A stretch of DNA of 57,478 nt from Candidatus Gastranaerophilales bacterium (GTDB taxonomy: Bacteria > Cyanobacteriota > Vampirovibrionia > Gastranaerophilales > Gastranaerophilaceae), in the NCBI GenBank assembly GCA_944325945.1, contig CALVBW010000015.1, positions 1 through 57,478 on the forward strand. The letters run 5' to 3'. The notes under the pieces are model-generated. The model ran no database searches, was not told the DNA's origin, and saw only the letters and a list, made by a program, of their open reading frames with translations. The translations under genes were made by a program, and so were the position numbers. How positions within the stretch are numbered: position 1 is the stretch's first letter; the number at the start of each line of letters is the position of its first letter. Below are positions 16,366-57,478 of the stretch, piece after piece.

Positions 16366-18348
16366 TTATGAATATATTTTAAATGATCGTTCTATGTTTT
16401 TATCAATTACTGATTTAACAGAATCATATTCGGTTTGCAATGAATTGTGTTCCGTATCAATATTTTTAAGTTCCATATCGTAACGTTTATCTTTATTTTC
16501 AATGTTATTCATCGCTTTATTGTATTCAGCTTCAGCGCGTGTTACTGCTACATCATCGGTAACCTCAGTAATATCGCTGATATTTGTATACATTGTAGAA
16601 ACCCATTCGTTATTTGAATCAACCTGTTCCATGGTTACAATGCCGTTTTCCAGTGCAAATTCAATCCATTCATTGCTGGATGCAAGACCTTTTTCTATGA
16701 CGCTGTAACCTTGTTCCATACGGTTATAAAGATTTGTGTACCATTGAACTTTTGCATCAGCATTTTCTTCCGAATTATTAACGTCTATCCAGCCCCATGA
16801 AGGTTCGCCGTAGATATCAAATAAACAATCAAGAATTGCTATTTGTTTAACCGGTTCAAATGCCTGTGTCGTATCAAGTCCGTTTTCCTGCGCAAACTTG
16901 ATTACAAGTGCCGGATCAGCAAAAATTGATCTGTTTGCCTTTATTAATTCAAGTTTTTCGTTTCTTTCTGCTTCAGGTAAATCGCTTAAATCTCCAAAAG
17001 TTAGTCCTATCATTAGGTCTAATGCATCATTATATTCATTTTTTGCTGCTATTGCTTGAGCATTACCATCAACAAAACCATCACGGTTTACTTCCGAACT
17101 TATACCATTTGCAAATTCACTGAACAAGCCTATTAATAATGATTGCAATTCTTCAGCATTTTCGTAATATCGTTTAACAGTAGCTGTATCTTCTCCAAGT
17201 TTTAATGTGTATTCAAATTTGGTATCTTCAACATATTCTTCACCAGTTTCTTCATCCTGTTCGGTTTCTGATGATGTATATATAAAAGATAATTCATTTG
17301 TTTGAGGGTTATAATTTGTGACTTCCCAACTTGATGTGGCTCCTTCAGGTTCATTAAGCATAACAAATGAAAAATCAGTTTCTCCGTCTTCATTTTCTGT
17401 AGGGGTAATCACGATTTCGTCATTTATTGTATAGGTGCCATCTTTATCGTTATAGACAACTTCCATTTGACTTGTTGAGGTTGCATAATTGCCTGCAAAA
17501 GTTACGCCGCCTTTTGCTGGATCAAGTATTGCAAGCAAACTTTGTGCCCACTCGTTATCTTTGCTCAACTTAGGTGGATTTGAATTTTGCAAGTCTTCAA
17601 TTTTATTTTTCAAAAAAGTAAAACCATTTTGTAAGTCAGCAAAACTGGTTATTTGCGTATTTACATATTTATTATAATTTGCGTCCCAGCCTGTATTATC
17701 GCCAAAAAGCTGTTCTGAAAGTGTTTCACTGACTATTGCGTTATAATTCGCATCAGCCATAAGCATATTGTTATAGTATTCTGAGAAGTTTACGTATTCT
17801 GATGTTTGGAAGCAGTCATCGTAGCTTTTGTCATAACCGTTTGTACCTTCGTACATATCTTTCAATTGTTGAATTGAATAAGAACCGAGGTCGTGTTCGT
17901 TTCCGTCATCATCAATATATGTTATCGGCACAGGATCTCCGCCGAGTGTATCTGAGCTAAAGAATGTAGAAGTGTATTCAAGCCCGTATTTTGCTAAAAA
18001 TTCATCTAAACCGCCGCCATCTTCTTTAACAGCTCTGAAGTTTGCAGCATCGGCTTCTGAAACAAGAAGTTTTCCGTTTGCATTTACAAGACCGTACTGG
18101 TTATTGTATGAGCTGTATGATGTAAGTGAATTAAAGCTTAATTTTTGGTATTGTTCTTCGCCTGCTAAATCATAATTTGACATCATCATTGTGGCAGAAT
18201 TCAAAGCATTAATATATTCCTCGCTGACTCTTGAACTTTCAGTAGCAAGGCGCATCTTCGAATTGTTGATAATCTGAGACCTCAGCTCGTTATCAGCCAT
18301 ACGAGATGTAATTGATAATAATCTTGCTTGTGAAGCTGCCATTCCCAT
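16366..18348 (-). CDS. Large orphan protein of the MGMAASQAR family
   Basis: 660 aa. I recognise the N-terminus as recurrent in this lineage but know no function. The first about 60 residues (MGMAASQARLLSITSRMADN...) and the last about 70 (from NKAMNNIENKDKRYDMELKN onward) are predicted long amphipathic helices. The middle is an acidic, variable, Asn/Tyr-rich region. Conserved helical ends with a variable centre resemble flagellin or hook-associated proteins, by architecture only. There is no Sec signal. ATG is preceded by AAGGA. The promoter at 18386-18413 matches the sigma-28 (FliA) consensus. A second gene with the same N-terminus begins at 57451. Confidence 0.75.
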   Translation of the reverse strand: MGMAASQARLLSITSRMADNELRSQIINNSKMRLATESSRVSEEYINALNSATMMMSNYDLAGEEQYQKLSFNSLTSYSSYNNQYGLVNANGKLLVSEADAANFRAVKEDGGGLDEFLAKYGLEYTSTFFSSDTLGGDPVPITYIDDDGNEHDLGSYSIQQLKDMYEGTNGYDKSYDDCFQTSEYVNFSEYYNNMLMADANYNAIVSETLSEQLFGDNTGWDANYNKYVNTQITSFADLQNGFTFLKNKIEDLQNSNPPKLSKDNEWAQSLLAILDPAKGGVTFAGNYATSTSQMEVVYNDKDGTYTINDEIVITPTENEDGETDFSFVMLNEPEGATSSWEVTNYNPQTNELSFIYTSSETEQDEETGEEYVEDTKFEYTLKLGEDTATVKRYYENAEELQSLLIGLFSEFANGISSEVNRDGFVDGNAQAIAAKNEYNDALDLMIGLTFGDLSDLPEAERNEKLELIKANRSIFADPALVIKFAQENGLDTTQAFEPVKQIAILDCLFDIYGEPSWGWIDVNNSEENADAKVQWYTNLYNRMEQGYSVIEKGLASSNEWIEFALENGIVTMEQVDSNNEWVSTMYTNISDITEVTDDVAVTRAEAEYNKAMNNIENKDKRYDMELKNIDTEHNSLQTEYDSVKSVIDKNIERSFKIYS

Positions 18349-18385: not shown

Positions 18386-18413
18386 TTATCGGCTTTATTA
18401 CCCTAAAACTTTA
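18386..18413 (-). promoter_or_regulatory. Sigma-28 (FliA/SigD)-type promoter
   Basis: On the minus strand TAAAGTTT (18406-18413), a 12-base spacer and GCCGATAA (18386-18393). Both boxes match the enterobacterial FliA consensus completely; the consensus spacer is 11. The expected transcript starts about 30 bases before ATG 18348. Confidence 0.7.
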
Positions 18414-18442
18414 ATATTTTGTGCTTTTTTATTAACAAATTG

Positions 18443-19480
18443 TTACAAACTTAATAATGCTTTTTTAAGTTTTTGTAACTTTTTCTTATCAGTTCCTATT
18501 CCACATAAAAGCATAGTTGATTTTTCATTTGTTTTTTCGTCTTCAATATTATATTCATCAAAAAGAATTTCGGACAGTTCTTCCCCGGAAAGTTCAGGAA
18601 CCTTGATCAAAATTTTTGTTAAATCATCTCCGAAAAATTCGCAGGTATCACATTCATCCCTTAGAATTTCCAATTCATCAATTAATTGATCAAGCTTACG
18701 TCGTCCCCACCAGCTGTTCAGGTAGTTAATTGTATCTTCAATTGAAGCCAGAAGCGGATAAGATGGAGAAGTTGTGTTTATCATATTTAATGCTTTTTCA
18801 ATCCGCAGATTGCACATGCAGTGTAAAAGTGCTGTCGGATTAAGTCCGCCTGCAGTTTTATGCAGCGATTGAACGGTGAAATCAGCAATATTTACCGCAC
18901 TTTCCGGAAGCCTTTGTGAAAACGGATATAATGCCCCGTGTGCCTCATCAACAATTAAATATACATTATGCTTTTCGCAAATTGATTTAATCTTTCTGAT
19001 ATCGGATACAATACCTTCATATGTAGGCGACGTAATTATTAAAGCCTTAATATCATAGGCATTCAGATAATTTTCAATCATATCGGGCGAGGTTTCAGCA
19101 GGAATTCCCCACTCCTCGTTCATTTCAACATCATAAAAAATCGGAATAGCACCTGCAAGTCTTACTGCATTTAAATGGCACGGGTGCGCATTATTCCATA
19201 CCATAACTTTGTCGCCCGGATTTGTGCATGTTAAAACAGAGGCTATTATACCGCTTGTTGAGCCGTTTGTTAAAAATGATGTGGAATTTGTCCCGTAAAT
19301 CTTTTTCGCGCGTTTCTCGGCCTTTGAAAGTGCTTCCTGCGGATTGTGTGCATCAGTTTCCGAAATATCAATTTTATACATTGATTTTAACGGTTTATAA
19401 ATTGCAAATTTCTGGGAATGCGACGGAGTTGTAAAAAGTATTTTTTTATTCCGCTTTTTTAAAAGTTTTACAAGGCTCAT
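18443..19480 (-). CDS. Short Orn/Lys/Arg decarboxylase-type PLP enzyme
   Basis: 345 aa fold-type I PLP protein. It follows the major domain of Orn/Lys/Arg decarboxylases: TNGSTSGIIASVLTC, NNAHPCHLNAVRLAGA, SPTYEGIVSDI, the cofactor Asp in VDEAHGALYPFS, and the PLP Lys in QSLHKTAGGLNPTALLH. It is about 100-150 residues shorter than usual family members because the C-terminal domain is reduced. Decarboxylation of a basic amino acid (polyamine synthesis) is likely; an aminotransferase-like role is possible. It follows the PilZ gene with a 2-base gap and is coupled to it. Confidence 0.8.
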   Translation of the reverse strand: MSLVKLLKKRNKKILFTTPSHSQKFAIYKPLKSMYKIDISETDAHNPQEALSKAEKRAKKIYGTNSTSFLTNGSTSGIIASVLTCTNPGDKVMVWNNAHPCHLNAVRLAGAIPIFYDVEMNEEWGIPAETSPDMIENYLNAYDIKALIITSPTYEGIVSDIRKIKSICEKHNVYLIVDEAHGALYPFSQRLPESAVNIADFTVQSLHKTAGGLNPTALLHCMCNLRIEKALNMINTTSPSYPLLASIEDTINYLNSWWGRRKLDQLIDELEILRDECDTCEFFGDDLTKILIKVPELSGEELSEILFDEYNIEDEKTNEKSTMLLCGIGTDKKKLQKLKKALLSL

Positions 19481-19482
19481 TA

Positions 19483-20073
19483 TTATTTATTCTTAATTTC
19501 TATATTACGTTTTGCACAGTATTGAATCATAGTCATCTTGTCATGGCTTGAATTGAATTCAAATCTGCCTGAAACCGTGTATCCGCCTTCATTATTTTTT
19601 TCAATACGAATAGGTGAAAATTTGCATTCAATATTTTGTTCTTCAGAAAGCGGCAGCGTAATTTTGTAATCTTTTTCAATGTTTATATTTTCGCAGGTTT
19701 TCAACTTCATACCGCCTGCAGATATGTCAAGAGTTGTAATCTTTAATGCATTTCCGCCGTCAAACATGTCTAAATCAAGTATGTATTTGATACGTGTATA
19801 TTGACGTCTTTGTAAAAACTTATGTTTTGCAGGACTTGCAATTTTAAGAGTGTTTCCGTTAATTTCTTTTGCATAAGAGTCGAAATAAAGTGTTCCGTAT
19901 TTTGTCTGGGTATAAAATTCGCAGTAATTGCTTTTCAGTATTCCCTCCGGCGCATAATCCAATTCCAGCATAAAATAATCCGGCGCAACCTCTGTTATTA
20001 CACCTTTATTCGCAAATTTAAAGTCATGCGGAACCATTATTATTCTTTGATCTTTTGAAATTAATTCTCTCAT
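19483..20073 (-). CDS. PilZ-domain c-di-GMP-binding protein (YcgR-like)
   Basis: 196 aa. The N-terminal half is a YcgR-like barrel (about 1-80). The C-terminal PilZ domain carries the cyclic-di-GMP motifs RRQYTR (RxxxR, about residue 88) and DISAGGM (D/NxSxxG, about 118). Both motifs are intact, so binding is expected. Such proteins act as flagellar brakes or regulate surface polysaccharide. It is the first gene of a pair with the decarboxylase homologue, just upstream of the sigma-28-driven gene. Confidence 0.85.
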   Translation of the reverse strand: MRELISKDQRIIMVPHDFKFANKGVITEVAPDYFMLELDYAPEGILKSNYCEFYTQTKYGTLYFDSYAKEINGNTLKIASPAKHKFLQRRQYTRIKYILDLDMFDGGNALKITTLDISAGGMKLKTCENINIEKDYKITLPLSEEQNIECKFSPIRIEKNNEGGYTVSGRFEFNSSHDKMTMIQYCAKRNIEIKNK

Positions 20074-28013: not shown

Positions 28014-28057
28014 TTTTTTAAATTATGTAAAAAATTGAATATTTTATTAAAGTTTTT

Positions 28058-28110
28058 AAATACACATTCCGTAAGTATTCATGTAAGAAGATAATACGGG
28101 GTGTGTATTT
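28058..28110 (+). promoter_or_regulatory. Long hairpin upstream of a 46-aa ORF
   Basis: Arms AAATACACATTCCGTA (28058-28073) and TACGGGGTGTGTATTT (28095-28110) pair over 16 positions with two mismatches (one G-T). The right arm ends 2 bases before ATG 28113, so it would mask the start. It may be the terminator of the EF-hand gene, though the T-run is short, or a translational switch. Confidence 0.5.
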
Positions 28111-28112
28111 TT

Positions 28113-28253
28113 ATGAATGAAGAATTTAAAAAAGAAGATGTAATTCAGGAATTAAAAACATTAATTGATGCGGCAGAGGAGTATCAATCAGAAATTGACG
28201 CATACTGCGAATTTATGAAGGGCATGTTTTTAAATACATCAGGTATAAATTAG
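28113..28253 (+). CDS. Small acidic helical protein (46 aa)
   Basis: It begins MNEEFKKEDVIQELKTLIDA and ends LNTSGIN. It is almost entirely one predicted helix, acidic, with one Cys. It is not recognised. Codon use is like its neighbours and the frame is clean, but there is no clear Shine-Dalgarno sequence and the start sits at the foot of a long hairpin. It could be a regulatory small protein; a chance ORF is possible. Confidence 0.45.
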   Translation: MNEEFKKEDVIQELKTLIDAAEEYQSEIDAYCEFMKGMFLNTSGIN

Positions 28254-57326: not shown

Positions 57327-57387
57327 TTGTTATTAGTGTATTATGGCAATTATTGTAACGAAATATTAAGAAAAATGATTCAAAAAT

Positions 57388-57450: not shown

Positions 57451-57478
57451 ATGGGTATGGCAGCATCACAGGCCAGAT
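57451..57478 (+). CDS. Second MGMAASQAR-family protein (5' fragment)
   Basis: Only nine codons remain before the window edge (MGMAASQAR). They are identical in protein to the start of the 660-aa product at 16366-18348. AAGGGAACAAG is a weak ribosome-binding site. It shows the family has at least two members here, both behind sigma-28-like promoters. Confidence 0.75.

Follow-up and report, generated by a model that had tools for sequence, protein, structure and literature searches.

A FliA/WhiG-type promoter upstream of a flagellin-like protein family and a candidate non-motile, flagellum-like export system in Gastranaerophilales

We analyzed a window of 57,478 nucleotides from Candidatus Gastranaerophilales bacterium (contig CALVBW010000015.1 of assembly GCA_944325945.1, contig C15 in our numbering), in which a FliA/WhiG (sigma-28)-type promoter is located upstream of the gene for a protein starting with MGMAASQAR, termed P0001. 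The reading we favor, with a probability of about 0.6, is that this promoter is part of a FliA/WhiG regulon for a flagellum-like export system that is non-motile and has flagellin-like substrates. The promoter would be read by the single FliA/WhiG sigma factor of the genome, probably assisted by an activator at the element TTGTAACAATTTGTTAA, and would drive one member of the MG[ML]AASQAR family of flagellin-like proteins of Gastranaerophilales. Judged by their anatomy, gene neighborhood and shared distribution, the family proteins are most likely exported by an apparatus that we term class 2 after its FlhA, comprising FlhA, FliE, FliF, FliH, FliMN, FliO, FliP, FliQ, and rod proteins of the FlgB/C/F/G type. 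Once exported, they would perhaps assemble into a non-motile structure on the cell surface or in the periplasm. The host genome is 1.63 Mb and 97.7% complete. At the protein level, the named relatives closest to it are metagenome-assembled genomes (MAGs) of Candidatus Gastranaerophilales and Melainabacteria.

On the minus strand, 18413 to 18386 reads TAAAGTTTTAGGGTAATAAAGCCGATAA. The promoter observation is real and was confirmed. An original prediction, made from the letters of the window, had placed the site 30-some bases before the start codon; 37 nt separate its end from the ATG at 18348. It had also claimed a full match to both FliA boxes. The -35 box TAAAG(TTT) and the -10 box GCCGATAA are indeed both present, but the spacer between the octamers is 12 nt and not the 11 nt of the E. 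coli sigma-28 consensus TAAAGTTT-n11-GCCGATAA (PMC2859248); related sigma factors may accept other spacers. The exact match TAAAGTTT-N12-GCCGATAA (8+8 positions) was found once in the window and in none of 100 dinucleotide shuffles of it. The entire genome contains two, whereas 0.004 would be expected given the dinucleotide frequencies in 0.24 Mb of host genome sequence, and the second one (C19:1348) lies 28 nt ahead of a 148-aa open reading frame (ORF). The -10 box by itself, predicted to be rare by chance, was not: it occurs 6 times in the window compared to 1.9 expected, and the scarcity resides in the two-box arrangement. Loose matches with three mismatches allowed were discarded because the pattern was barely more common than its reversed control (69 vs. 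61 genome-wide).

Within the genus the site was found ahead of orthologues, with the boxes conserved and the spacer sequence not. For 68 family members, mostly taken from named Gastranaerophilales MAGs, 60% of the upstream regions scored at least 18 compared to none of 340 shuffles, and 78% scored at least 17 compared to 1.2% of shuffles. The near-constant form was TAAAG-N15-GCCG, the 12-nt octamer spacer being the rule. A sequence model trained on 32 real sites was run over the own genome. Its best matches outside the training set include C17:74720, C28:15808, C8:36830, C20:4494, C15:28046, C14:62585, C17:116672, and C15:57386. Most of these are followed by an ORF within about 50 nt (20–50 nt), some of the ORFs being further MG[ML]AASQAR genes, while lower-ranked matches were intragenic and probably arose by chance. 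The predicted sites form a coherent set, and site, sigma factor, and regulon are well supported.

The element TTGTAACAATTTGTTAA is a direct repeat of two half sites with a 10-bp period, and in the family it is mostly found 31–35 nt before TAAAG. TGTAAC or GTTACA was present at 78% of 60 family promoters compared to 5% of shuffles, and several sites outside the family are also preceded by TTGTAACAATTTGTTAA. At the flagellin upstream regions of relatives it was found in 2 of 20, which is near chance. CRP activates a sigma-28 promoter of E. coli from position -49.5 (PMC2859248), whereas the predicted element is centered around -61. An activator bound at TTGTAACAATTTGTTAA probably helps the promoter.

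The original prediction depended on a FliA homologue, and the genome was found to encode a single FliA/WhiG sigma factor (241 bits with TIGR02479, cut-off 189.6). The solved chains nearest to it bear the names sigma factor or FliA. It scores highest with the WhiG model, but at 263 of 343 bits it stays below the equivalog cut-off of NF004935. TIGR02479 was over its cut-off in 53 of 59 genomes, including genomes without flagellin. FlgM, which was also to be looked for, gave no match in the own genome and none over the cut-off in the 59 genomes, although proteins of this kind are short and divergent. In flagellated relatives, FliA-like sites were found at only some of the flagellins, where the spacer is 1 nt shorter (upstream regions L087–L092 and L266–L285); several share an ACAGGGA-GTAA-like motif instead. 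We therefore dropped the idea that the sigma factor serves the class-2 system alone even in flagellated relatives.

The flagellin N domain (PF00669) was found neither in the own genome nor in 14 of 15 genomes of the same genus. MotB (PF13677), present in most flagellin-bearing relatives, was not found in the own genome, and nearly all of the genus is likewise without detectable flagellin or MotB. The statement that the window holds no flagellar gene held for about 19 of the 69 listed ORFs, which were scanned, but a divergent flagellar-type apparatus is encoded elsewhere in the genome. One cluster (C8) contains FliE, a divergent FliF, FliH, and FlhA; a second (C3) contains FliMN, FliO (by position), FliP, and FliQ; and a third contains FlgB, FlgC, and two FlgF/G-type proteins. 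The FliE, FlgB, FlgC, and FlgEFG models were over their cut-offs, so that the rod and basal proteins FliE, FlgB, FlgC, and FlgG are represented. Among the matches listed, a 239-aa class-2 FlgG frame is the only strong FlgEFG match of the own genome; a divergent hook protein is possible.

The own FlhA scored 697 bits with TIGR01398 (cut-off 772) and 582 bits with the SctV model TIGR01399 (cut-off 692), below the equivalog cut-offs for both FlhA and SctV. Across the 59 genomes, full-length FlhA proteins fell into two score groups of about 860–890 bits (class 1) and about 670–730 bits (class 2). Class 1 is essentially confined to genomes with flagellin and tracks flagellin and MotB. Class 2 was present in all 58 genomes of the order Gastranaerophilales, alongside a separate class-1 FlhA in flagellated members and as the sole class in the own genome; the one genome outside the order had neither. 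In an FlhA tree with plasmid-borne outgroups from annotated coding sequences, class 1 grouped with flagellar FlhA, SctV formed its own group, and class 2 was a separate clade (100/100) outside both. Gut Melainabacteria without flagellin were described earlier as having lost flagella, and earlier work took such genomes as cases of flagellar reduction. A universal and separate FlhA class argues instead for a distinct, retained system. The best reading is that all members of the order have the class-2 apparatus, as something distinct from the true flagellum, and that the own lineage lacks the true flagellum.

Two further observations concern flagellar sequences. Genomes G014 and G004 contain stray flagellar fragments, possibly from contamination. 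A 490-aa soluble protein with only the C-terminal domain of FlhA (L082:7165-8637, own genome C2:41164-42636) has counterparts in almost every genome of the order.

The P0001 gene had been called an orphan. This was not borne out: the family is represented in 57 of 59 genomes, each having many matches, paralogues are mostly full length, and the same window holds the start of another MGMAASQAR gene, at 57451, which has a site of its own. Contig C11 opens with the reverse complement of the sequence at this contig break (57386–57478). Invariant residues are restricted to the first 21 and the last ~52 positions of the family, which is the pattern of conserved ends and variable middle of flagellins and other axial proteins. 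In an AlphaFold2 model of P0001 (pLDDT 89) the two terminal helices are paired. The conserved termini of the family are predicted to come together in a long coiled coil, with the variable part between them, an arrangement shared with flagellins. The top VIA-align match was a flagellin filament (Z 9.1, 2.5 Å over 106 residues), with the FliD cap at 9.0 and 7.0 and unrelated coiled coils close behind (Z 6.3). No solved chain matched P0001 by sequence. The modeled likeness to flagellin is architectural, and homology is not proven. Family genes adjoin the apparatus: on C3 they are transcribed divergently from fliMN-O-P-Q, and on C8 they precede fliE-F-H-flhA; the family-apparatus neighborhoods of L183 and L191 are similar.

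Beside the family, a 108-aa protein (MGLINSTIR..., L081:5615-5941, own genome C8) resembles two family ends without the middle. It is encoded upstream of fliE, and its neighbors are conserved in L191.

Several results weigh against the favored reading. P0001 matched no family in Pfam or NCBIfam, including no flagellin or hook family, and Foldseek returned nothing at E ≤ 0.001. The model of a shorter paralogue aligned equally well to SMC-type coiled coils and to flagellins, and the likeness in fold may therefore be a mere common arrangement. Predicted promoter sites are weaker in some paralogues, and none were found at the L081 and L079 paralogues. The class-2 FlhA clade is on a long branch. 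Finally, since FlgM was not found, control coupled to export is unsupported.

The MGMAASQAR proteins may also be soluble effectors that are released or delivered by a type III-like system rather than structural proteins. The middle domains are long and variable, and among the proteins encoded behind candidate sites are a calpain-like one, slightly under the Pfam cut-off, and other uncharacterized ones. However, the invariant residues at either end and the pairing of the terminal helices suit flagellar axial proteins better than effectors with an N-terminal signal only, and we consider the effector explanation unlikely, though it is the best of the alternatives. Somewhat less probable still is that the class-2 apparatus plays no part in exporting the family and that the sigma factor controls a coiled-coil family which is cytoplasmic or exported otherwise. 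WhiG and the sigma-28 of Chlamydia control non-flagellar genes (PMC8325347, PMC10597470), and WhiG is the best-scoring model for the own sigma factor, but the family genes neighbor and co-occur with class-2 export genes. That late flagellar-class genes and a decaying basal body are leftovers of a lost flagellum is the least likely explanation, given the occurrence of class-2 FlhA throughout the order, beside class 1 in flagellated members and in its own clade, promoter boxes that are conserved while the spacer varies, paralogues that are many and mostly full length, and partial FlhA copies in four genomes which we rejected as relics because tblastn places them nearer to class 2.

The regulon that we favor, serving a flagellum-like export system, shares with the FliA regulon of flagellated bacteria the TAAAG and GCCGATAA boxes, a sigma factor of the FliA/WhiG family, and the flagellin-like anatomy of a target. 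It differs in that flagellin, MotB, and FlgM were undetected in the own genome, the spacer is 12 and not 11 nt, an extra TTGTAAC element is present, and the target family is unnamed. WhiG has a role in sporulation and, by prediction, in type IV pili of Rubrobacter (PMC8325347), and Chlamydia sigma-28 targets hctB and tsp (PMC10597470). Both are flagellar-type sigma factors on non-flagellar genes, whereas here the target genes adjoin those of a flagellum-like export apparatus and the sigma factor is below the WhiG equivalog cut-off. The absence of the rod proteins FlgB, FlgC, and FliE is a criterion of non-flagellar type III secretion systems (Abby and Rocha, 2012; PMC3459982). These systems and a Myxococcales intermediate (PMC3459982) likewise have a flagellum-derived export gate without motility genes, but here FliE, FlgB, and FlgC are present and FlhA falls outside SctV, fitting the FlhA model better (697 vs. 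582 bits, both below cut-off). Campylobacter FlaC is a flagellin-like protein that, according to its description, is secreted and has no part in motility (PMC4863622); FlaC is described as a flagellin, while P0001 matches no flagellin model.

The original prediction had offered that, if the organism lacks flagella, a flagellar-type sigma factor was kept for a different exported system. This fits the lack of detected flagellin, MotB, and FlgM and the coherence of the predicted sites. The prediction was incomplete in that the exported system itself appears flagellum-like (class-2 FlhA and rod proteins of the FlgB/C/F/G type), and so was only partly supported. More tentatively, and short of even odds, the system might be a flagellum-type export machine of a third lineage, distinct from flagellum and injectisome alike, which builds a non-motile appendage from the large family of flagellin-like MGMAASQAR proteins under control of FliA/WhiG and an activator.

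Altogether, these observations suggest that a second flagellum-like export system, with a separate evolutionary history, has been retained in all examined members of the order, and that it has flagellin-like substrates and sigma-28-type promoters of its own. If true, common gut bacteria that are uncultured would possess a new system for secretion or at the cell surface, and the divergence of flagella and type III secretion could be studied in a living test case. In the open-licence literature we found nothing that links a system of this kind to Gastranaerophilales or Melainabacteria.

Table 1. Positions of the promoters, elements, and genes in the window.
Feature	Position	Strand	Remarks
FliA/WhiG (sigma-28)-type promoter	18386..18413	-	-35 TAAAGTTT, 12-nt spacer, -10 GCCGATAA; predicted transcription start ~18379
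Conserved element TTGTAACAATTTGTTAA, candidate activator-binding site	18432..18448	-	Center ~61 nt before predicted start; overlaps 3' end of upstream gene
P0001, 660-aa MGMAASQAR protein	16366..18348	-	N-terminal helix 2-49, C-terminal helix 599-659, variable middle; candidate exported flagellin-like protein
Second FliA-type site, TAAAG...GCCGTAA	57386..57414	+	Model match outside training set
TTGTAAC-type element of second site	57353..57369	+	From printed sequence
Start of second MGMAASQAR gene	57451..57477	+	Broken off at contig end
Weaker FliA-type site TTAAAGTTT...TCCGTAAG	28046..28074	+	Model E 0.16, outside training set
46-aa ORF MNEEFKKEDVIQELK... behind weaker site	28113..28253	+	Candidate gene only, from printed sequence

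A few other genes were noted. An HD-domain (HD-GYP-like) protein (L221:2563-3795, own genome C8) is encoded behind a FliA-type site, which is a possible link to c-di-GMP; in Actinobacteria WhiG is under the control of c-di-GMP. Two calpain-like (Peptidase_C2) proteins are encoded in opposite orientation on C17 (L223:2242-3912 and 512-2071), and the one preceded by a candidate FliA-type site is the protein slightly under the Pfam cut-off mentioned above. A PilZ-domain protein is encoded at 19483–20073, beside a decarboxylase-like gene and two genes upstream of P0001.
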